Below the pieces are notes generated by a model. That model saw only the letters and a program-made list of their open reading frames with translations, did not search any database and had not been told where the DNA came from. The position numbers and the translations under genes were made by a program. DNA of 64,000 bases from Hoeflea algicola (lineage in GTDB: Bacteria > Pseudomonadota > Alphaproteobacteria > Rhizobiales > Rhizobiaceae), in assembly GCF_026619415.1 (NCBI RefSeq), contig NZ_JAOVZR010000001.1, forward strand, positions 4,803,304 through 4,867,303. The letters run 5' to 3'. Positions 17,004 to 55,315 of this stretch are shown here, one piece after another (the first letter of the stretch is position 1; each line of letters begins with the position of its first letter).

Positions 17004-17424
17004 GCCGGACCGCGCCTGCATCGGCCTCGACTGTAAGCCGGGGCAGGGCCGCCCATTTGTTCCAATCTGCCTCGTTAGCAAGGGCAACAACCGGGCAATC
17101 GGTCTGGTAGAGCATTTGCGCGACCAGCGCGCCGGTGGCGATGATGGCGTCGGCTTCAAGCAGAACAAGCGCCGCTGGTGCTGTGCCGAGCCGGATCGCT
17201 TCGGCTAGCACCGAGGCGCCTGACGACGAACCGCGCCCGCGTCTCATGAACACGATCCTGCCGGACAGGCAGGTCCCGTGTTGCGGGTGAAAACGGTCGA
17301 TCACCATGCCGTTGGCGCTGTCAAATCCTCCCCAGAAACTCAAGGGGTCACCAAGCATCAACACCGGGCCTTGCGCGCACCCGTGAACCAGTGACTTCCC
17401 ATCAATCTGCAGACCGGCGCTCAT
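16987..17424 (-). CDS. Aconitase X swivel (small) subunit
   Basis: A 145-residue DUF126/aconitase X swivelling-domain protein. It starts [20 protein letters not shown] and contains the family stretches [35 protein letters not shown] and [20 protein letters not shown]. It works with the large subunit encoded upstream; in bacteria such pairs act as cis-3-hydroxy-L-proline dehydratase. Its ATG overlaps the TGA of the large subunit (ATGA), showing a two-gene operon. The 3-prime end nearly meets that of the YeeE-type gene coming the other way. Confidence 0.86.
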
Positions 17425-18662
17425 GCCCGCACCACCCGGCCGGCCTTGGCCGATAAAAGCGTGTCGGCGAGCGTGCCGAAGGCAACATCGACGCCGAGAT
17501 TGCCGGGCGCGTAATAGGCCCATTTGCCTGAATTGGTCATCACTGCACCTGACAGATCGCGGATGATGGCGGTGACATAGGTACAGGTATCGACCACCAC
17601 GGTGACTCCCGCCTGTTCAAGCCGTGCAGCGTTTCCGGTTGCGCACAGCCGTTCCCATTCATGCCGTCCGGTATTGACATAGACCGGTACCGCGAACGGT
17701 GCGAGATCCAGCATCGCCAGCAGCCGTTCGAACTCCGAGAGTGAAAAATGCGGTGTCCCCAGTGCCGCGGCGGTGATCGGCGCACCCTCGGTTACGGTGC
17801 CGAGCCGGTTCAACACCGCTGCAACTTCGCCAGCGTCCAGACGCGCCACAACCGGCACGTTACGGCCACCGGTGGCGGTCTCGAGATCAGGGGCCTCCGG
17901 TGTCAGGCCGACGGCATGGAACATCGCCACGCTGCCCGACGATGCCGCCGCGGCCCCCAGCGCTTTCAAGTCGTCTTCGCTGGTGGCGGCGGGGAGACCG
18001 GTGATCGCGGCGATGGTATCACCGCACTCGCGACCGACAACAAGGCCCGCAGCGACCGCAATGCCGCCGGCCTGGTCGGCAGTGGCATTTTCAAGCCCGG
18101 TGATTTCGACGATCGCCCCGGCAAGCCGGTTTTCGCTACGATGCAGCCCGTAATCGGGCACCCTTCCTGTCAGCGCACAGGCTAGGTCGATGAAATCGCC
18201 ATAGCGGTTGGTGCGCGCGCCGATCACCGAATTGGCAAACACGATAGCGTTGGATTCGGCCCAGGCAAGCTGGTCGCCGAGTTGCGGTCTCAGCAATGTC
18301 TGGTAGGGCGCACAGGTAAAGCTCGGCGTGCAGCCCAGTTCCAGATGCGCTTCCATCAACCGTTTGCCGGCAGCACCAAGCTCCGCCTCGCCGATATAGA
18401 GTTCTGGATGAATGAGATCGACCGAGCCGACATTGAGCGTCGTCGGCACCCGCACCCGGCCTTGCTGTGCCACGAACCGTTCGACGAAATCGAGGCTGGC
18501 CTGGCCGTGATAGAGACAACCGTCGACATGGGCTTGCGCGCAGTCAACCAGCCGCTCGGCACCCACCGCCTCGGCAAAGCGCAATACCAGCCCAAGCGCG
18601 TCTGCAGCGGCAGAGCCATGGGTTCCCGAGAGCATCTCACGATCGTCCTGCGTCAATTCCAC
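17421..18662 (-). CDS. Aconitase X catalytic (large) subunit, cis-3-hydroxyproline dehydratase type
   Basis: A 413-residue DUF521/AcnX protein. Family stretches seen include [74 protein letters not shown] and [20 protein letters not shown]. The cysteines in CTPSFTC and DTCTY fit the iron-sulfur or metal site of the superfamily. Characterised bacterial members dehydrate cis-3-hydroxy-L-proline to pyrroline-2-carboxylate; the archaeal ones act on mevalonate 5-phosphate. No proline racemase or ketimine reductase gene is beside it, so the substrate is an inference. It is divergent from the nitrite/copper cluster. Confidence 0.86.
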
Positions 18663-18899
18663 CCCGGCATCTCCCTGCTTGCGAACATGCGGCGAACCTA
18701 GATCTGTTCATCCTTAAATGGAAACGTTTTGCTTGGGTATCGAGCTCTGCATGCCCTGCCTCTGTCCGAACGCCGGGCAGTATCGATCTCGCGAGCAAAG
18801 GGGCAAACGGCGCGAGGATCCGTCGTTGCGAAGCGAGCCGAAAACTCCCGTTGAAAGGGGCATTGAGGTCGGCACATGAGGTTGGCAAAACGGTGCAGA

Positions 18900-18926
18900 T
18901 AAAAAAGTATTGACGATACTTTTTTA
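18900..18926. promoter_or_regulatory. Perfect inverted repeat upstream of the NsrR site
   Basis: TAAAAAAGTAT-TGACG-ATACTTTTTTA: 11-bp arms with a 5-base spacer. The spacer holds most of the predicted -35 (TTGACG, 18910-18915) of the oxidase-nirK promoter, so a protein bound here would cover the -35. The regulator is unknown; it is not the FNR/NnrR consensus. Confidence 0.65.
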
Positions 18927-18938
18927 AAGATGTATCTG
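18910..18938 (+). promoter_or_regulatory. Predicted sigma-70 promoter for the multicopper oxidase / nirK cluster
   Basis: TTGACG at 18910-18915 and TATCTG at 18933-18938, 17 bp apart, about 75 bp upstream of the first ATG. The -35 is good and the -10 is imperfect. Both boxes lie inside inverted repeats. Confidence 0.5.
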
Positions 18939-18949
18939 AAATACATCTT
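18927..18949. promoter_or_regulatory. NsrR operator
   Basis: AAGATGTATCT-G-AAATACATCTT is an 11-1-11 dyad that differs at one position from a perfect repeat and matches the known NsrR consensus (AAGATGYATTT-N-AAATRCATCTT). It overlaps the predicted -10 of the oxidase/pseudoazurin/nirK promoter. An nsrR gene lies 6 kb downstream, so repression relieved by nitric oxide is the likely control. Confidence 0.82.
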
Positions 18950-19014
18950 ACGGAATCACCCACCACGAACCTCAACAGGGATCAAGGTAAGTCTTGAATT
19001 AAAAAGGGAAAATC

Positions 19015-20118
19015 ATGGGAATGAACGATATCAGCCGACGTGGCCTTGTGAAATTAGCGGGCATTGGCGCCGCTGTGGCGACACAGCTTTCAGCAACCGA
19101 AACGGCGTATGGATTTACCGCAGGCGCATCGGAAACGATCGCGCCTGTTGCCCCTCAAACACACAAATTTAACATGACCGTTGAAGAGGCGCGTTTAAGT
19201 GTGTCGCGTGGTTTTGAAACCAATGTCTGGGCATATAACGGGCAGGTACCCGGCCCTCTGATCCATGTCCGTGAAGGTGATTTTGTAGAAGCGACAGTCA
19301 CCAACAAGACCAAAGGCGTGCATACAATCCATTGGCACGGGATGTGGCAAACAAACTCATGGCGCAGCGATGGCGCACCGGGAATTAACGGTTTGGCCAT
19401 CGAGTCGGGCGGTGGCAGCAATACCTATAGTTTCAAGGCCGATCGGAAAGGCAGCCTCTGGTATCATTGCCATGTCGAAGTGCCAAATCATGTTGGCGTG
19501 CGTGGCATGTGGGGCCCGCTGATCGTTGATCCGGCAGACCCGCTTCCAATCGAAAAGGAAGTGACCAAAGATTGCCTTCTAATGTTCTCGGGTTGGAATA
19601 GTGACGTCGCCGATGACTATTTCGCTCAGGAAGATCCCTCTGGGCACCTGAATTACTTCTCCATCAACGGAAAGTCATTTCCCTATAATCAGCCAATTCG
19701 GGTGAAGGAAGGCGATGTCCTGCGTCTGCGCCTGTTTGCGGCAAGCGTTGCCGTATCGTTCCACCTGCACGGCCACGATATGCTCGTTACCCACCGCGAC
19801 GGGATGCCGGTGCCATATCCTCAACTGGCCGATACGGTTCATGTTGCCATGGGCCAGCGTGCAGACGTCATCGTGCACATGAACAATCCAGGTCGCTGGC
19901 CGTTCCACGATCATGCCGACCACCATCTGAGCAATAATGGCGACACCCCCGGTGGGCTGTTTGGCATTATTGAGTACGAAGAAGTTGGCATCGATGACCC
20001 CTGGTACCTTTGGGCTCACAAGAAATATGACCCTGACTTCTACTTCACCGAAAGTATGAAGAAAGGGTACGGGCTCATCACCCAGTCCGGCTTCAAAGCC
20101 ACCCCGTCAAAAAGTTAA
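19015..20118 (+). CDS. Two-domain multicopper oxidase, Tat-exported (NcgA/type C-like)
   Basis: A 367-residue periplasmic protein with a twin-arginine signal (DISRRGLVKLAGIGAA). Domain 1 holds HWHG (about residue 105), WYHCHVE and a following HVGVRGM, which gives a full type 1 copper site plus trinuclear-cluster histidines. Domain 2 holds HLHGHD and HDHADHH, where the usual HCH is HDH, so it has cluster histidines but no type 1 Cys. A single type 1 site in domain 1 is the type C two-domain laccase plan, as in the blue copper oxidase of the Nitrosomonas ncgABC-nirK cluster. Substrate unknown: cuprous ion or another electron donor is possible. First gene of the NsrR-controlled set; pseudoazurin follows 26 bp after its stop. 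Confidence 0.88.
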   Translation: MGMNDISRRGLVKLAGIGAAVATQLSATETAYGFTAGASETIAPVAPQTHKFNMTVEEARLSVSRGFETNVWAYNGQVPGPLIHVREGDFVEATVTNKTKGVHTIHWHGMWQTNSWRSDGAPGINGLAIESGGGSNTYSFKADRKGSLWYHCHVEVPNHVGVRGMWGPLIVDPADPLPIEKEVTKDCLLMFSGWNSDVADDYFAQEDPSGHLNYFSINGKSFPYNQPIRVKEGDVLRLRLFAASVAVSFHLHGHDMLVTHRDGMPVPYPQLADTVHVAMGQRADVIVHMNNPGRWPFHDHADHHLSNNGDTPGGLFGIIEYEEVGIDDPWYLWAHKKYDPDFYFTESMKKGYGLITQSGFKATPSKS

Positions 20119-20144
20119 TCCCCCCAGTTCCATAGGAGAAAAAT

Positions 20145-20642
20145 ATGGAAAACGCGATAGTCCCGCGTAGCTTTCGGCTGCGTGTCCTTCCCCTGTTGCT
20201 TGGCGCCCTGCTCATTGCGCCGCTTCCCGGTTTTGCACAGGATGCCGCCCCGAATGAAGTGCGCCTCATGGACAAGGGGCCCGATGGCACCAACAAGGTA
20301 TTTGTACCGGCGATCATGCGCATTGAGGTTGGCGGCGATGTCAATTTCGTCGCCTGGGATTTTGGCCATGACCTTACGTCGGTGGATGGTCTGGCACCTG
20401 CCGGTGCCGCGCCATTCAAGGGCTACAAGAACGCGGATACCAATGTCGTTTTTGAGAAGGAAGGCGTCTACGTCGTCCAATGCGCGGCCCACAAGGAAAT
20501 CGGCATGGTTGGTATCGTCGTGGCCGGTGATCCGTCGGTAAATCTGGACGACATCATCGCCAATTATCCAACCAACGCTGCATTGTCAGAAGGCGCCCGC
20601 GCCCGCCTGGGTGTGCTCCTTGAGACGCTCAAATCCGAATAG
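20145..20642 (+). CDS. Pseudoazurin-type cupredoxin
   Basis: A 165-residue blue copper protein with a Sec signal peptide ending PLPGFAQDA. The type 1 ligands are visible: His in WDFGHDLTS (about residue 86), then Cys, His and Met in VVQCAAHKEIGMVGI (about 122-130). The AIMRIEVGGDVNFV strand and the TNVVFEKEGVYVV strand fit pseudoazurin, and a C-terminal helical extension (NYPTNAALSEGARARLGVLL) is also usual. Pseudoazurin carries electrons from cytochrome bc1 to NirK in the periplasm, which fits the nirK gene 75 bp downstream. A strong hairpin separates it from nirK. Confidence 0.9.
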   Translation: MENAIVPRSFRLRVLPLLLGALLIAPLPGFAQDAAPNEVRLMDKGPDGTNKVFVPAIMRIEVGGDVNFVAWDFGHDLTSVDGLAPAGAAPFKGYKNADTNVVFEKEGVYVVQCAAHKEIGMVGIVVAGDPSVNLDDIIANYPTNAALSEGARARLGVLLETLKSE

Positions 20643-20650
20643 CCAAACTG

Positions 20651-20682
20651 GATTTCACGCATTGAAATCAATGCGTGAAATC
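20651..20682 (+). promoter_or_regulatory. Strong 32-nt palindrome between pseudoazurin and nirK
   Basis: GATTTCACGCATTGA-AA-TCAATGCGTGAAATC: 15-bp perfect arms around two bases. It ends 36 bp before the nirK ATG. No T-tract follows, so an mRNA-stabilising or processing hairpin, or a protein site, is more likely than a terminator. Confidence 0.6.
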
Positions 20683-20717
20683 TCCTTGCAATCGATCCCA
20701 TGCCCAGGAGAAAACGA

Positions 20718-21803
20718 ATGTCATTTGAGGACGCAACGAAATCAAACCGCCGCCAATTCATACAGATGGCGGGTGTTGGTATTGCCGCTTCGAGCGCTAT
20801 TGCCTTGAGCGGAACCCAGGCGAGCGCATCCGTGCCCAAGCCGGAACTGACAACCGGCAGCTTTGTCGGCAAACGCCTGTTACCTGATCTGGTGGTTGCC
20901 GATCCGACGGCCATTCCCGGCCCGATTTCCTACGACAGCCCCCGCAGCCATGATATCCATCTTGTTGCCAAAAGCGTCGTGTCTGAAATCCTGCCTGGCG
21001 TGACACACACCTTCATGACCTTCAATGGTCAGGTGCCGGCCCCAATGATCCGCGCCCGTCAGGGAGATACGCTGAATATCACCGTCACCAACTCTCCCGA
21101 AAACGAGACCTCTCACAGCATCGACCTTCACGCGGTCAGAGGGACAGGTGGCGGTGCCGGGTATTCCGAAGTCGCACCCGGGAAATCCAAGACCTTTACG
21201 TTCAAGGCGGACTACCCCGGTGCCTTCATCTATCACTGTGGCGTCAGCAACATGGACGAACATATCAGCCGTGGCATGTTCGGCATGATCGTCATCGAGC
21301 CCCTCGAAGGTCTGCCCGCCGTAGACCGCGAATTCTATATCGGTCAACACGAACTCTACACCAAAGAAAGTTTCGGTCAGCCGGGCGAAGCCAACTTTGA
21401 TGGGCGCTCCATGGTAAAGGAAGACCCGACCTATGTGCTGTTCAGCGGAGCCGTCGCCCCATTTGTGGCATCTCGATTTGGAACCATGAAGGCCGAAGTT
21501 GGTGAGACCGTCCGTGTGTTCCTGGTGTCGGGGGGACCAAACCTGATGTCCAGCTTCCACCCGGTCGGCAACGTCTGGTCGCGCGCATGGCCGCAAGGCG
21601 GGCTGGCGAATGAGCCGCTCAAGTACATTCAGACATGGCCGGTGACCCCTGGCTCTACGTTCGTGGGCGATATGGATCTTCCGGTTCCGGGGTTGATCAC
21701 CTTGGTTGATCACGCTCTTTCGCGCGTTACCAACAAAGGCAATGCGGCACAGATCGAGGTTATTGGTGACGATAACCCTGAATTCCTTGACGCCAAGGGA
21801 TAG
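20718..21803 (+). CDS. nirK: Copper-containing nitrite reductase NirK
   Basis: Reduces nitrite to nitric oxide in the periplasm. The 361 residues start with a twin-arginine signal (SNRRQFIQMAG). Copper ligands are all visible: SHSIDLHA supplies the type 1 His, the catalytic Asp and a type 2 His; FIYHCGV supplies a type 2 His and the type 1 Cys; MDEHISRGM supplies the type 1 His and Met. In domain 2, SSFHPVGNVW carries the catalytic His and LVDHALSRV the third type 2 His. The SSFH form is like the AniA group. The ATG at 20718 has AGGAG at good spacing. No norCB or nosZ is in the window, so NO would have to be removed elsewhere. Confidence 0.93.
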   Translation: MSFEDATKSNRRQFIQMAGVGIAASSAIALSGTQASASVPKPELTTGSFVGKRLLPDLVVADPTAIPGPISYDSPRSHDIHLVAKSVVSEILPGVTHTFMTFNGQVPAPMIRARQGDTLNITVTNSPENETSHSIDLHAVRGTGGGAGYSEVAPGKSKTFTFKADYPGAFIYHCGVSNMDEHISRGMFGMIVIEPLEGLPAVDREFYIGQHELYTKESFGQPGEANFDGRSMVKEDPTYVLFSGAVAPFVASRFGTMKAEVGETVRVFLVSGGPNLMSSFHPVGNVWSRAWPQGGLANEPLKYIQTWPVTPGSTFVGDMDLPVPGLITLVDHALSRVTNKGNAAQIEVIGDDNPEFLDAKG

Positions 21804-21815
21804 GACACACGCCCT

Positions 21816-21842
21816 GCCGCCGGAAAGACGATTTCTGGCGGC
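21816..21842 (+). terminator. Hairpin after nirK
   Basis: GCCGCCGGAAA-gacga-TTTCTGGCGGC is a stem with one mismatch, 12 bp after the nirK stop. There is no T-tract, so intrinsic termination would be weak. Confidence 0.4.
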
Positions 21843-22065
21843 ACCTTCAAGGCCGTAGCCCCTGAGACCTGGAAATATTCAACAGCCCGTCATCGTCATC
21901 CTCGATGTCGCCGGGTTGGCAAGTGTTCCCATGTTTGCCGCGACCGACCATCCATTCACACCTATGGCCAAAACCCTGGTGGGTTCGAAGCCGCGGACCT
22001 GAGGGCGGCGGCAAAACCCGGGCCGACAGCCCGATCGATCCCCCCTTTTCCTTTGGAGAGAAACC

Positions 22066-22587
22066 GTGAATACCATTCTGACGACCCTTGCAGTGCTTGC
22101 ACTTTCCGTCCCGGCAGCGTTCGCACATGTGAATTTTGAAACGCCGCAGGCACAGCAAGGGACTACCTATCTCGGCGTGCTTGGAATCGGCCACGGTTGC
22201 GCCGGAGAGCCCACGTTGAAAGTGCGGGTGCAGATCCCCGATGGCGTGATTGCCGTCAAACCAGTTCCGAAAGCTGGTTGGTCGGTCGAGATCGTGACCG
22301 GCGCTTATGCGCAAAGCTACGATTATTACGGCACGCCGATGACCGAAGGCGTGAAAGAGCTGATCTGGACCGGCGAGCTTTCCGACGCCTATTTCGATCA
22401 GTTCGCCTTCCGTGGCAAGCTGACCGATACTCTGGCAGTGGGCACAACCGTCTACTTCCCGGTTGTTCAGGAATGCGCAAACGGGGCTGACCGTTGGATT
22501 GAAATCCCTGCCGATGGTCAAGACCCCCATGACCTCGAAGATCCGGCACCGGGCCTGAAGATCTTGGCGCCAGCCGCAAAGAACTGA
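22066..22587 (+). CDS. YcnI/DUF1775-family periplasmic copper-binding protein
   Basis: A 173-residue exported protein. The signal peptide (TTLAVLALSVPAAFA) is cleaved before HVNFETPQAQQGT, leaving an N-terminal His that forms the copper site in characterised YcnI proteins. Further family stretches are GIGHGCAGEPTLKVRVQIP and GVKELIWTGELSDAYFDQF, with VYFPVVQECANG near the end. It likely buffers or delivers copper in the periplasm, suiting the copper enzymes upstream. The start is GTG with GGAGAG at 7 bases. It is followed by the copC-copD fusion gene. Confidence 0.84.
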   Translation: MNTILTTLAVLALSVPAAFAHVNFETPQAQQGTTYLGVLGIGHGCAGEPTLKVRVQIPDGVIAVKPVPKAGWSVEIVTGAYAQSYDYYGTPMTEGVKELIWTGELSDAYFDQFAFRGKLTDTLAVGTTVYFPVVQECANGADRWIEIPADGQDPHDLEDPAPGLKILAPAAKN

Positions 22588-22696
22588 CAAGTCCGCAAGA
22601 TCGAAAAGAGGCGCCTGGCTCTGGGCGCTCTACCCCCTGCCGCGCATGTCGATGCCCGGCAGGGGCACCACTCACGCTCCCAATACGAGGCAGTCG

Positions 22697-24388
22697 ATGC
22701 GTATTCTGGCAAGCAATGTACAAGGGGTCTTCTGCTTCTTGTTTATGGTTCTTGTAGTGGCGACGGTGCCTTCATCCGCCCTTGCCCATGCTGAATTTCA
22801 GGGCAGCGCCCCGGTTGCCAATGCCTTGCTTGACGAATTGCCGACGGGCGTGCGCCTTCAGTTCAGCGAACCTGTCGGAGCCCTGACGCTTGAATGGCTT
22901 TTGCCGGATGGAACGCGTGGCACTGCAACGGCCAAAGCCACGCCTGACGGATTGTTGCTGTCCGCACCGCCCGCGACCGGACGTGGCACCTATGTTCTGA
23001 ACTGGCGGGTTGTCTCCGCCGATGGTCATCCCATTGGCGGCGCATTGGTCTTCTCCCTCGGTGAGGTCACCGGCACGACCGAACCCGGAACCGATGCGGC
23101 AGTCCTTCCCGCCATCATCGCGCGATTTTTAGCCATTTTAAGCATGATCTTTGCAGTAGGGGCGGCGCTTTATGCTGCGCTCATTGGCCCGCTGTCCTCT
23201 GGTGCCGCCCGCTTTGGCCGGGTTGCCGCACTGGCTGCGGTGCCGCTGGCGCTGGTTGCGCTCGGTGCCTACGGGCTTGATCTGCTGGGGCGCGGCTCCT
23301 CCGCTTTATTTTCTTCCGTGCCGTGGCAGGTTGCCATCGCGGTGCCGCGCGGTTGGGGATTTCTGGTCGGCGCCGCCGCAGCCATCATCGCGGGGAGTCG
23401 CTCGCGGCAGCGGCCTGCTATTGCTCTGCTTGTGCTCGTTCTTGGGGCTTCGTCGCTTGCCGTTTCGGGGCATTCCAGCACCGGACAAAACCGCTGGATC
23501 GGGCAGCCTTTGATGATGCTTCATGCCGCAGCATTGATCTTTTGGGTTGGAGGACTGCCGCCGCTGATCGCCAGCCTGTCCGGGCAGGGCGGGTTAAACG
23601 CCTTGCGCCGGTTCTCGAACGTCGCGCTGCCTGCGGTAATCGTGCTTGTGGCAACGGGGGTTGGCCTCGCGCTGATCCGTGGCGCGGATATTGCCACGTT
23701 GATCGCGTCGGATTGGGGGAAGCTCTTGGCGCTCAAACTGGTGCTGGTGGCCTGTATGCTTGCGCTTGCGCTCTTGAACAAAACGCGGCTGACCCCGGCG
23801 CTTGCCACAGCACCGGGCAGCGCACGGTCCAGCCTGCGCCGCAGCATAAGTGCCGAGATCGCCCTCGGGGCTATGGTCCTGCTTGTTGCCATGTGCTTTC
23901 GGTTAACGCCGCCGCCCGGTGCCCACACAGCACCCGACCCGATCCACCTGCATCTGCACAGTGCTGAAATCGCGGCTGAAGTCAGCCTTTCCGCCGCGCC
24001 GCCAGGTGCGATTGATGTATCGGTCAATTTCATGGGCACAAATGCAGATTTACTACCGCCCAAAGAGGTCAATCTGACCTTCTCGGATCCCGCGGCTGGC
24101 ATTGGCCCAATCAGTTTTGACGCGCAGTTGCTGGACAGCGGCATGTGGCAAATTGGGCCCGTTACGCTTCCCACAGCCGGACCGTGGAGCCTGAACATTG
24201 CGGTTCTCGTGACTGACTTCAAGCAGATTACACTCAGCGGTATCTTCACACCCCCAAAACGGGCAGCACGAGGCCCATTCGAATTTATAGCGCCTTGCCT
24301 GGTGATTTGGAGGCAGAGAGACGGACATGAGCAAGAGAATTTGGTTCTCAAAGGTGCTCGGGCAGGTCGCCGGGACGCAGGGTATTGA
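22697..24388 (+). CDS. CopC-CopD fusion copper transport protein (YcnJ-like)
   Basis: About 563 residues. The signal peptide ends ALAHAEFQGSAP, giving the N-terminal copper His of the CopC domain, whose other His is in SADGHPIGGALVFSLG. Eight or so membrane segments (about residues 135-400) form the CopD part, with the conserved HAAALIFWVGGLPPL. A C-terminal beta domain follows, ending at TDFKQITLSGIFTPP. The last 45 residues (from KRAARGPFEF) are unlike the family and charged, and may come from loss of the original stop. Probably imports copper into the cytoplasm or manages it for the copper enzymes of this cluster. The ATG at 22697 has GAGG upstream. Confidence 0.86.
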   Translation: MRILASNVQGVFCFLFMVLVVATVPSSALAHAEFQGSAPVANALLDELPTGVRLQFSEPVGALTLEWLLPDGTRGTATAKATPDGLLLSAPPATGRGTYVLNWRVVSADGHPIGGALVFSLGEVTGTTEPGTDAAVLPAIIARFLAILSMIFAVGAALYAALIGPLSSGAARFGRVAALAAVPLALVALGAYGLDLLGRGSSALFSSVPWQVAIAVPRGWGFLVGAAAAIIAGSRSRQRPAIALLVLVLGASSLAVSGHSSTGQNRWIGQPLMMLHAAALIFWVGGLPPLIASLSGQGGLNALRRFSNVALPAVIVLVATGVGLALIRGADIATLIASDWGKLLALKLVLVACMLALALLNKTRLTPALATAPGSARSSLRRSISAEIALGAMVLLVAMCFRLTPPPGAHTAPDPIHLHLHSAEIAAEVSLSAAPPGAIDVSVNFMGTNADLLPPKEVNLTFSDPAAGIGPISFDAQLLDSGMWQIGPVTLPTAGPWSLNIAVLVTDFKQITLSGIFTPPKRAARGPFEFIAPCLVIWRQRDGHEQENLVLKGARAGRRDAGY

Positions 24389-24647
24389 ACGCGGTTGTGG
24401 CGGGATTGTACATGTCAATCACAATGCGATGCACCTGGACGAACCGCCCCGCGTCCTGCCGGGTAAGGCCAAGCAGACTGTCCGGGGGGCAAACCGGATG
24501 TACTGCAATCCACGTGGCGGCAGCGCGGCGCAAAAAAATGGGCATATTCGGCGTGCGGAGGGCCAGAGATGGGACACATCGCAGGCCGGCCTACGTCCTG
24601 GATGTCACGAATGGCCTCCATCGCAATCAATACAAGGCTCGCAAGCC
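24389..24647. other. Gap between the copCD-type and nsrR genes, no supported gene
   Basis: About 259 bp between two convergent genes. Both strands contain short open frames, but none resembles a protein family I know. It may be decayed sequence, in keeping with the odd tail of the upstream gene. Confidence 0.4.
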
Positions 24648-25088
24648 TCAGAAACCTGGCAAATTCAAAAGCCGCGTCAACGTCCCCTTTGACTTTACAA
24701 GGTCGGCAATAGTGACCCGGCCCATAACGTCCAGAAATGCCTTCAACCCTGTGTTTAACGTCTTGTTCAGTTCGCAGTTCCCGACCAGTGGGCACTCGGA
24801 CTCACCACAATCAAAACATTCGGCAATCTTGAAATCGGGTTCTGTAATGAGCATGACATCGCGCAGTGATATCTCCTCGGGTTTCTTTGCCAGAAGGATC
24901 CCGCCGGTCACTCCTCTGGACGTTGACAGTAATCCTGCAAGTCCCAATTCGTAGACTATTTTCATAACGTGATTTCTGGAAATTTTATAGCTGTCACAAA
25001 TTTCTTTGATTGTTGCCTTTTCACCGTTTTTCAGGCTGACGTACATCAAAACTCGAAGAGAATAGTCGGTATATGTTGTTAGCCGCAT
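24648..25088 (-). CDS. nsrR: Nitric-oxide-sensing Rrf2-family repressor NsrR
   Basis: A 146-residue Rrf2 protein with the typical NsrR opening MRLTTYTDYSLRVLMYVSL, a winged helix-turn-helix (TIKEICDSYKISRNHVMKIV) and the three iron-sulfur cysteines in ECFDCGESECPLVGNC at about 90-105. The [Fe-S] cluster reacts with NO, releasing DNA. A near-consensus NsrR operator lies in front of the oxidase-nirK genes 6 kb away, so this repressor probably controls them. The ATG at 25088 (MRLTTY) is preferred to a start seven codons earlier, as it gives the family N-terminus. Confidence 0.9.
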   Translation of the reverse strand: MRLTTYTDYSLRVLMYVSLKNGEKATIKEICDSYKISRNHVMKIVYELGLAGLLSTSRGVTGGILLAKKPEEISLRDVMLITEPDFKIAECFDCGESECPLVGNCELNKTLNTGLKAFLDVMGRVTIADLVKSKGTLTRLLNLPGF

Positions 25089-25220
25089 CCCAGTCTCTCT
25101 CTCGGCCATAATAATGATCGGTCCGGAAAAGAGTATAGCATATGCATATTTAAAAGTGGAGTATGCATGGTTGCGCTTCCGTGGCCGCTACGCGGGAAGC
25201 GAGAAGGGGGTGGACACGGA

Positions 25221-25658
25221 TTAGAGCTTCTCCAGCACCGAAACGAAGGCCTTGGCGAACTGCACCAGGTCCGCAGTCGCGGCATCCGGTTCCAGCGTGA
25301 TGGCCCGGTCGCCATCAGCGTCCAGCAGGACCAGTCCGAACCGACCAGGCTCGGTCCGCGACAGGCAGACAACGGCAATGCGCTGGGCGTTGTCGACCAG
25401 CCCGGAGGCGGGGAGATCAAACAGGAATTCGCCGCCGATGGTCTTTGCCGCCTGCCGCACGGCCTGCGAAAATCCCAGTTCGGCGATGTCGTTGAGATCA
25501 AGCGCCAGTTCCAGTTCCATCAGGTCGAGCATCATCGGGGCCAATGATTGCTCCGCTGTGGTGGCGATGATCGGAAGCGGTTGCATCGGCCCCATGAACG
25601 GGGCGGGATCGGCGTGGCTCGGCTGTGCCATCGGCGCTAAGGCTGTGTCGGTCGTCAT
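25221..25658 (-). CDS. Protein of unknown function
   Basis: A 145-residue soluble protein. The first 35 residues are Pro/Ala/Met-rich and look disordered. A compact alpha/beta part follows, with SLAPMMLDLMELELALDLND, a helix FSQAVRQAAKTIGGEFLFDL, strands RIAVVCLSRT and RFGLVLLDADGDRAI, and a final helix VQFAKAFVSVLEKL. I do not recognise the family. No signal peptide or membrane segment is seen. TTTGCCATG precedes the start with AAGGAG nearby (GCGAAGGAGATTTGCC), so translation is well supported. Confidence 0.6.
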   Translation of the reverse strand: MTTDTALAPMAQPSHADPAPFMGPMQPLPIIATTAEQSLAPMMLDLMELELALDLNDIAELGFSQAVRQAAKTIGGEFLFDLPASGLVDNAQRIAVVCLSRTEPGRFGLVLLDADGDRAITLEPDAATADLVQFAKAFVSVLEKL

Positions 25659-28807: not shown

Positions 28808-28881
28808 TGGGGCGTAGCCAAGCGGTAAGGCACCGGTTTTTGGTATCGGCATCCCTGGTTCGAATCCAGGCGCCCCAGCCA
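28808..28881 (+). tRNA. tRNA-Gln (anticodon TTG)
   Basis: A 74-nt cloverleaf. The acceptor stem is TGGGGCG paired with CGCCCCA, the anticodon loop is TTTTGGT with anticodon TTG, the T-arm is CCTGG-TTCGAAT-CCAGG, and the 3-prime end is an encoded GCCA. Confidence 0.95.
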
Positions 28882-55238: not shown

Positions 55239-55315
55239 CGGAGTGTAGCGCAGCCTGGTAGCGCACGTCGTTCGGGACGACGGGGTCGGAGGTTCGAATC
55301 CTCTCACTCCGACCA
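55239..55315 (+). tRNA. tRNA-Pro (anticodon CGG), prophage attachment site
   Basis: A 77-nt cloverleaf: acceptor CGGAGTG with CACTCCG, anticodon stem-loop CGTCG-TTCGGGA-CGACG with anticodon CGG, T-arm GGAGG-TTCGAAT-CCTCT, and encoded ACCA. The phage integrase gene ends 63 bp downstream, so the tRNA 3-prime end is the likely attB core. Confidence 0.95.

Follow-up and report, generated by a model that had tools for sequence, protein, structure and literature searches.

A putatively acquired nirK island in Hoeflea algicola combines a conserved multicopper oxidase–pseudoazurin–nirK unit with a candidate NsrR-like repressor

Among the closest described systems, the nsrR-ncgABC-nirK genes of Nitrosomonas europaea and Nitrobacter place a two-domain type C multicopper oxidase (MCO) by nirK, together with an NsrR-type repressor and operator; a homologous oxidase and an NsrR-like repressor with a candidate operator are found in the island described here. 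Published work ties the ncgABC-nirK cluster to nitrite tolerance (PMC5080386, PMC10781756) and terms the role of ncgABC putative. A denitrifier-type pair occurs on plasmid pHL2708X3 of Maritalea myrionectae, with pseudoazurin directly before nirK and an Rrf2 gene some kb upstream. In the literature consulted, we found nothing on a unit that joins MCO, pseudoazurin and nirK.

We analyzed a 64,000-nucleotide stretch of the Hoeflea algicola genome (the window), in which an earlier sequence-only reading had proposed a nirK island at 18900..25088. Family scans of ten proteins between 15900 and 25658 recovered every gene it had named: MCO, a pseudoazurin-like protein, NirK, a YcnI-like protein, a CopC-CopD fusion and, convergent to these, an NsrR-like Rrf2 repressor (Table 1). 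The genes of that span are thus real, but its end trims the repressor by 21 bases, and the inserted block runs from 18663 to 25220, between AcnX (17421-18662, minus strand) and a short conserved gene (25221-25658, minus strand). These two neighbors are 6,558 bp apart in the window, whereas they are adjacent in 13 of the 15 sibling regions read, with gaps of 78-664 bp; AcnX is missing there in the other two. The suggested comparison of GC with the neighbors gave a GC3 of 0.54-0.66 in its six genes against 0.67-0.78 in nine flanking genes. Some flanking genes were named by eye (PPDK, MBL, BioY, ProV). In a search for a mobile element at the borders, no direct repeat paired both ends among the 20 repeat families, of 21, that were shown for 18500-25500, and the window has two tRNA genes, one at 28808 and one at 55239. 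The block is inserted at a chromosomal site that siblings leave unoccupied; that it was acquired horizontally is one part of an overall explanation whose probability we place near the midpoint.

Table 1. Features of the island, in window coordinates
Feature	Position	Strand	Basis
Promoter-like TTGACG-N17-TATCTG, second hexamer within operator	18910..18938	+	by eye
Candidate NsrR-type operator AAGATGTATCTGAAATACATCTT	18927..18949	+	consensus match
Two-domain type C MCO, twin-arginine signal (SRR, by eye)	19015..20118	+	family search, structure matches, alignment
Pseudoazurin-like cupredoxin	20145..20642	+	PF00127; TIGR02375 90.4 bits
Perfect 15-bp hairpin, between pseudoazurin and nirK	20651..20682	+	repeat/fold search
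NirK, copper nitrite reductase (by eye, probably starting at 20718)	20700..21803	+	TIGR02376 above cut-off
YcnI-like DUF1775 protein	22066..22587	+	PF07987 141 bits
CopC-CopD fusion (by eye, may start at 22697)	22646..24388	+	PF04234 and PF05425
NsrR-like Rrf2 repressor	24648..25109	-	PF02082

The MCO has two cupredoxin domains, a full trinuclear His set and type 1 copper in domain 1 only, as expected of a two-domain type C enzyme. It shares every His, Cys and Met ligand position with the two-domain type C MCO/laccase structures 2zwn and 3g5w: H103, C152, H159, M165 and the His set are invariant, domain 2 carries HDH and no Cys, and the copper ligand positions are constant across ten aligned rows that include both structures. 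It differs from them in a Tat-type signal and in its genomic coupling to pseudoazurin and NirK, and two database MCOs are joined to pseudoazurin in one protein. Enzymes of this class are homotrimers that reduce O2, which would be predicted here as well. The MCO could instead be a CueO-like cuprous oxidase that supplies or detoxifies copper together with YcnI and CopC-CopD, beside an ordinary NO-forming, pseudoazurin-fed NirK, an explanation that we regard as rather unlikely. The copper_res_A and CueO models do match the protein, though far below their cut-offs (117.8 against 478.95 bits and 67.5 against 525 bits), while the best two of 255 solved chains matched are the type C MCOs 2zwn (403 bits) and 3g5w (343 bits), the next scoring 115.

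The pseudoazurin-like protein falls short of the NCBIfam TIGR02375 cut-off of 109.85 bits, but its type 1 ligands (H75, C113, H116, M121) are intact, hence the cautious name. The gap that separates it from nirK holds a different hairpin in one of the two other loci read (L002) and only a weak fold in the other (L001). NirK exceeds its TIGR02376 cut-off (324.5 against 296.3 bits) and carries the T1 and T2 ligands plus the catalytic Asp and His; H139, D142, H144, H179, C180, H188, M193, H287 and H338 are common to AniA and to the second NirK encoded in the genome. AniA is among its nearest solved relatives, and the full T1/T2 ligand set is shared with the AniA/class II-like NirKs.

The order MCO-pseudoazurin-nirK extends beyond this host, as the sequence-only reading had suggested should be sought. 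It occurs in Candidatus Halocynthiibacter alkanivorans and Pseudovibrio japonicus; in the two other loci read, L001 and L002, the three proteins are respectively 75, 65 and 78% and 75, 59 and 71% identical to those of the window. Nine further contigs probably carry the unit: 10 of the 20 listed MCOs in the module clade, against none of 100 listed outside it, have a longest contig exactly as long as that of one of 120 listed NirKs. For 12 linked sets, nine of them linked through equal-sized contigs and the rest through contigs read, the trees of MCO and of NirK have starred groups in common, and the Mantel correlation of 0.886 between the two was reached by none of 5000 permutations. Identity of the island NirK is 62-88% with those of the remaining 11 sets but 39-44% with the other alphaproteobacterial NirKs sampled from the class, 11 in number; haloarchaeal and gammaproteobacterial NirKs are intermediate at about 50-58%. 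In a wider NirK tree (149 rows, FastTree, built from NirKs other than that of Nitrosomonas), the 22-row clade has a support of 54, and the NirK of one linked set, P0251, falls outside it.

Two database proteins, P0010 (Kiloniella sp. b19) and P0012, join MCO and pseudoazurin in a single chain, each with a NirK on an equal-sized contig, and in P0083, a related MCO, the fusion is to cytochrome c; in all three, the fusion partner is an electron carrier. Such a fusion has no obvious reason in a copper-loading oxidase. It fits a carrier that would probably link NirK with an O2-reducing MCO. Chance neighborhood was rejected for these three genes on synteny, congruent trees and shared contig sizes: they are co-inherited, and the searches and trees do not place them with separate chromosomal homologues in sister species. 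The opposite account, in which unrelated neighbors with separate histories form no module, is also opposed by the fusions and by operator-like sites in three loci; we consider it extremely improbable overall and largely refuted for MCO, pseudoazurin and nirK, although it still stands for YcnI and CopC-CopD. A different Rrf2 gene in L002 speaks for it, as does the composition of CopC-CopD, whose GC of 0.612 exceeds that of the five other island genes (0.468-0.580).

These two copper genes lie beside the unit in neither L001 nor L002 and therefore look like an add-on rather than part of the core, which weakens the earlier idea of a module with a copper loader of its own. Their absence there speaks for separate histories and also argues against a copper-handling MCO, an explanation that draws support from their presence in the same island and from the Maritalea plasmid, where pseudoazurin and nirK are paired and no MCO is annotated in the 16.9 kb shown (gene table incomplete). 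At E 1e-15, none of the 17 congeners searched has a CopC-CopD match, which also counts for that explanation, and 5 of 43 further relatives have distant ones. Similarly, no MCO orthologue was found in the 17 congeners, and across 384 other genomes of the class a single match reaches E 1e-40, at 34% identity. Together with the empty site, the congruent trees and an order kept in other families, these absences bear out the proposed portable module. Plasmids yielded no copy of the unit: at E 1e-30, 20 plasmid records match MCO and 76 match NirK, each at below 60% identity in its best place.

The proposal that the module has its own repressor is also upheld, by the Rrf2 gene and a candidate NsrR operator before MCO. 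The protein misses the cut-offs of both the RirA model (143.6 against 193 bits) and the NsrR model PRK11014 (101.5 against 182), and RirA was considered for its higher score. The operator and the target linked to it led us to prefer NsrR, and we infer that the repressor is NsrR-like, predicted to sense NO through an Fe-S cluster. Its nearest solved relative is NsrR 5n07 (51.9 bits), and the best match in 60 relatives scores 123.7 bits against 329.9 for the repressor with itself. The spacing of its three putative cluster cysteines (CFDCGESECPLVGNC) fits aligned RirA-like rows as well and did not discriminate. A 69% identical gene adjoins the unit in L001, but in L002 it is the opposite side that carries an Rrf2 gene, a different one (33%).

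The operator agrees with a self-written consensus at 21 of 22 positions and is the sole site in the window scoring at least 16. It has no mismatch to gATGyAT-N5-ATrCATc (14 specified positions), lies 66 bases ahead of the MCO start and is the only zero-mismatch site in the whole genome; the weight rests on this site, since the window count at up to two mismatches (1 against 0.87 expected) is not significant. The genome has two other sites, with one mismatch each: by eye, one is at an aldehyde-dehydrogenase-like gene and the other next to a gene resembling a transposase, and neither is an NO gene. An operator-like site precedes MCO in all three loci, weakly in L002. The promoter-like element has a counterpart in L001 (TTGACA-N17-CATCTA, by eye); a consensus promoter scan gave nothing above expectation and did not list the element at 18910..18938.

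The reported lack of a nearby NO reductase holds genome-wide for the haem-copper family, as all four PF00115 matches are oxidases above curated cut-offs (two CtaD/CoxA and two CcoN). The search for NO-removing proteins covered this family and the globins; no globin was found in the host genome, which also has NnrS adjoining a Crp/Fnr-type gene. As a control, the PF00115 search of Pseudovibrio japonicus does retrieve norB-like and qNor-like genes, named by eye from sequence and neighbors (NCBIfam gives no NOR name), so the missing reductase is no rule for carriers of the unit.

The explanation we favor, to which we give about an even chance, is a horizontally acquired island whose conserved periplasmic MCO-pseudoazurin-NirK unit, under its own NO-sensing repressor, would handle nitrite and NO in a host in which haem-copper NO reductase and globin NO dioxygenase were not detected. 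NO or nitrite stress would release the repressor and the island genes would be made, with YcnI and CopC-CopD perhaps helping to supply copper. Pseudoazurin would act as a one-electron carrier common to NirK and MCO, and MCO would hand electrons to O2. In air, the carrier would be kept oxidised, restraining nitrite reduction and letting NirK reoxidise NO to nitrite; when air is lacking, respiratory-chain electrons would pass through the carrier to NirK and nitrite would be reduced. Least certain is which way the net flux runs, and we put NO removal at rather less than even odds. A split periplasmic NO oxidase is in our judgment an unlikely reading of the unit: NirK would convert NO to nitrite, pseudoazurin would carry the electron and the two-domain MCO would pass it to O2, in an NO-induced detoxification free of Hmp and NOR; in Kiloniella, the carrier of such a system would be fused to the oxidase. 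If NO removal is the job, the island would represent an oxygen-dependent NO sink, easily missed where nirK counts as an NO source. MCO might also be just an auxiliary periplasmic oxidase that drains the pseudoazurin pool to O2, to protect NirK or balance redox, while NirK runs forward only and NO leaves the cell. The fusions, which set the carrier beside an O2-reducing enzyme, the two NirKs and the undetected haem-copper NO reductase agree with this, but on grounds of logic an NO-derepressed NO former with no sink (haem-copper NOR and globins being those searched) would amplify its own signal; we hold this alternative to be distinctly improbable.

Compared with the known systems, the island unites NirK with a type C MCO and an NsrR-like repressor, as the sequence-only reading had noted, and the pseudoazurin gene lies between MCO and nirK. 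Its MCO is of the type of 3g5w, which may be NcgA itself, yet sits in a supported clade apart from it (FastTree). NirK scores 248 bits with 5tb7 and 1kbv, presumably AniA, against 163 bits with 4kns, which we assume is the Nitrosomonas europaea enzyme; it apparently belongs to another lineage, and the likeness to ncg-nirK lies mainly in MCO and regulation. The replacement of the NcgB and NcgC cytochromes is supported: unlike ncgABC-nirK, the island has a pseudoazurin-like carrier, and because CxxCH is absent from all six proteins, none is a c-type cytochrome of that kind. The Maritalea NirK is 41.7% identical to that of the island. Relative to ammonia oxidisers, in which the MCO next to NirK has a putative role, the island offers a simpler version in other bacteria; since one small carrier stands where they have cytochromes, and since MCO-carrier fusions exist in nature, the electron path becomes testable with three soluble proteins. 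We read the island as ncg-nirK-like in architecture, yet not a member of that cluster.

The sequence-only reading described a type C multicopper oxidase (MCO), a pseudoazurin, nirK, a YcnI-like gene, CopC-CopD and an nsrR-like gene in this window, and all six are present as described (see table). The island enzymes are intact. Across ten aligned rows, the solved enzymes 3g5w and 2zwn among them, the MCO shows no variation at its copper ligands, and its domain 2 carries Asp at the position of the type 1 Cys (HDH), as in the type C layout. Similarly, NirK residues H139, D142, H144, H179, C180, H188, M193, H287 and H338 are common to AniA and the genome's second NirK. A CxxCH motif occurs in none of the six island proteins.

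Genes of the island in window coordinates
Gene	Position	Strand	Remark
Two-domain MCO	19015-20118	+	
Pseudoazurin-like cupredoxin	20145-20642	+	
NirK	20700-21803	+	
DUF1775/YcnI	22066-22587	+	
CopC-CopD fusion	22646-24388	+	
Rrf2 regulator	24648-25109	-	convergent

The island is inserted between AcnX and a short conserved gene, whose separation in the window (C1:4803304-4867303 of a 5.18 Mb genome in four contigs) is 6,558 bp. We compared 15 sibling regions from 17 congeners, leaving out the less complete G007 and G008; the two flanking genes are adjacent in 13 of them, with gaps of 78-664 bp, and in the remaining two (L054, L057) AcnX is missing and a YeeE-type gene adjoins the short gene. Island genes searched by tblastn gave no match above 60 bits in the 15 regions. 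In whole-genome searches of 60 relatives, the 17 congeners included, the best MCO match reached 118 bits against 872 bits for the MCO itself, with weak matches to other multicopper oxidases (E 1e-20 or better) in 25 of the 60; at E 1e-15, CopC-CopD was matched in none of the congeners and distantly in 5 of the remaining 43 relatives. Across an evenly drawn class sample (385 genomes including this one, with scoring limited to five candidates in each), the sole other MCO match at 1e-40 was 34% identical. NirK relatives occur in congeners, 39% identical in 4/17 and 33% identical in 2/17. GC3 is 0.54-0.66 in the island genes versus 0.67-0.78 in nine flanking genes, and the overall GC of CopC-CopD (0.612) is close to that of the flanks.

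A scan of the collection of species genomes that used this one MCO as query, a design that finds close relatives only, returned two loci, in Candidatus Halocynthiibacter alkanivorans and Pseudovibrio japonicus. Both have the identical order MCO-pseudoazurin-nirK, with neither YcnI nor CopC-CopD beside the unit. A repressor gene 69% identical to the island's is convergent to nirK in Halocynthiibacter, and a different Rrf2 (33%) lies upstream of the MCO in P. japonicus. The latter locus also encodes a ferric-reductase-like membrane protein (PF01794; L002:10896-11516) after nirK in the same direction. The island's pseudoazurin-nirK gap contains a perfect 15 bp hairpin (20651-20682; intergenic fold -22 kcal/mol), with a possible role in mRNA processing or attenuation; the gap holds a different hairpin in P. 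japonicus and only a weak fold in Halocynthiibacter.

Sequence comparisons indicate that MCO, pseudoazurin and NirK are co-inherited. In a FastTree phylogeny of 125 rows, covering the best 120 of 945 database matches, 23 rows with module-type MCOs group together, separate from 3g5w/2zwn, with support 100. Of the 20 database MCOs in this group, 10 have a longest contig exactly equal in size to that of one of the 120 listed NirKs; of the 100 listed outside it, none does. For 12 linked sets (the window, the two loci and nine linked by equal contig size), the MCO and NirK trees have their starred groups in common, with a Mantel r of 0.886 (0/5000 permutations); for eight sets, r was 0.942 for MCO-pseudoazurin (4/5000) and 0.934 for pseudoazurin-NirK (7/5000). 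However, the wide NirK tree (149 rows) counts against co-inheritance: the 22-row clade with most module NirKs has a support of 54, and P0251, the NirK of linked set c8850, falls outside it. The open-access literature, as far as it was covered, yielded no mention of an MCO-pseudoazurin-nirK unit.

The Rrf2 protein appears to be the island's own, dedicated repressor. PMC1274295 gives the NsrR consensus as gATGyAT-N5-ATrCATc, and an operator-like site, AAGATGTATCTGAAATACATCTT (18927-18949), matches it at 14/14 specified positions. It is the genome's one zero-mismatch site, against a chance expectation of about 0.08 by our own arithmetic with equal base frequencies; there are two one-mismatch sites, neither at an NO gene, and a reversed-pattern control gave none. 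By eye, the operator overlaps with a promoter-like TTGAC-N17 element. Against a 22-position consensus composed for this analysis, not a published one, the sites before the MCO score 19 in Halocynthiibacter and 17 in P. japonicus, the only ones of at least 16 in each locus, and ten mononucleotide shuffles of the window produced none of at least 17; the P. japonicus site matches the published consensus at 10/14 only, by eye. The Rrf2 protein obtains a higher score from the RirA model than from the NsrR model, both under cut-off; among solved structures, NsrR 5n07 is its best relative. Elsewhere in the genome, an Rrf2 gene 38% identical to the island repressor directly adjoins ccoN in a cbb3 oxidase operon (L006, G000:C1:4251467-4252756).

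The strain has two NirKs of different lineages, without a haem-copper NO reductase. None was found in its genome, where the haem-copper oxidase family has four matches, a pair each of CtaD and CcoN proteins over curated cut-offs; globins gave no match, and NnrS adjoins a Crp/Fnr-type gene. The second NirK, at about 3.66 Mb (G000:C1:3660151-3661476; L051:9651-10976, minus strand), is an open frame of 441 aa (TIGR02376, 492 bits) with the longer C-to-H loop of class I enzymes; by eye, the ORFs in the surrounding 20 kb include no other denitrification gene. P. japonicus has genes identified by eye as norB-like and qNor-like, and the Halocynthiibacter record has four haem-copper oxidase matches of 263-503 bits, the lowest, the sole one examined, being CoxA-like but under cut-off.

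Published work on ncgABC describes nitrite tolerance, harm from nirK without ncgABC, and putative NO scavenging. As to direction, these statements, and the failure to find a haem-copper NO reductase or a globin, favour NO control. NO would induce the island genes, pseudoazurin would be the carrier common to NirK and MCO, the MCO would act as an O2 sink for electrons, and the attached YcnI and CopC-CopD would supply copper. PMC6478695 presents a kinetic argument against NirK as an NO oxidase; an MCO holding the carrier oxidised is one conceivable, if hypothetical, way round this objection.

Fused proteins bear on the carrier. Two database MCOs, P0010 (Kiloniella sp. b19, 497 aa) and P0012 (503 aa), end in a pseudoazurin-like domain and share 51% and 50% identity with the window's protein over the aligned part; the NirKs P0259 and P0250 lie on contigs equal in size to those of P0010 and P0012, respectively. 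P0083, a related two-domain MCO of a myxococcote, has a cytochrome c domain fused instead. In either kind of fusion, the domain joined to the MCO is an electron carrier. Precomputed domains also place a cytochrome c domain in a second related two-domain MCO, P0107. In the N. europaea ncgABC genes, NcgB and NcgC are cytochromes c, as PMC3603346 implies, whereas the module described here has a pseudoazurin-like carrier; the simplest reading is that the carrier was swapped between ncg-type and pseudoazurin-type units.
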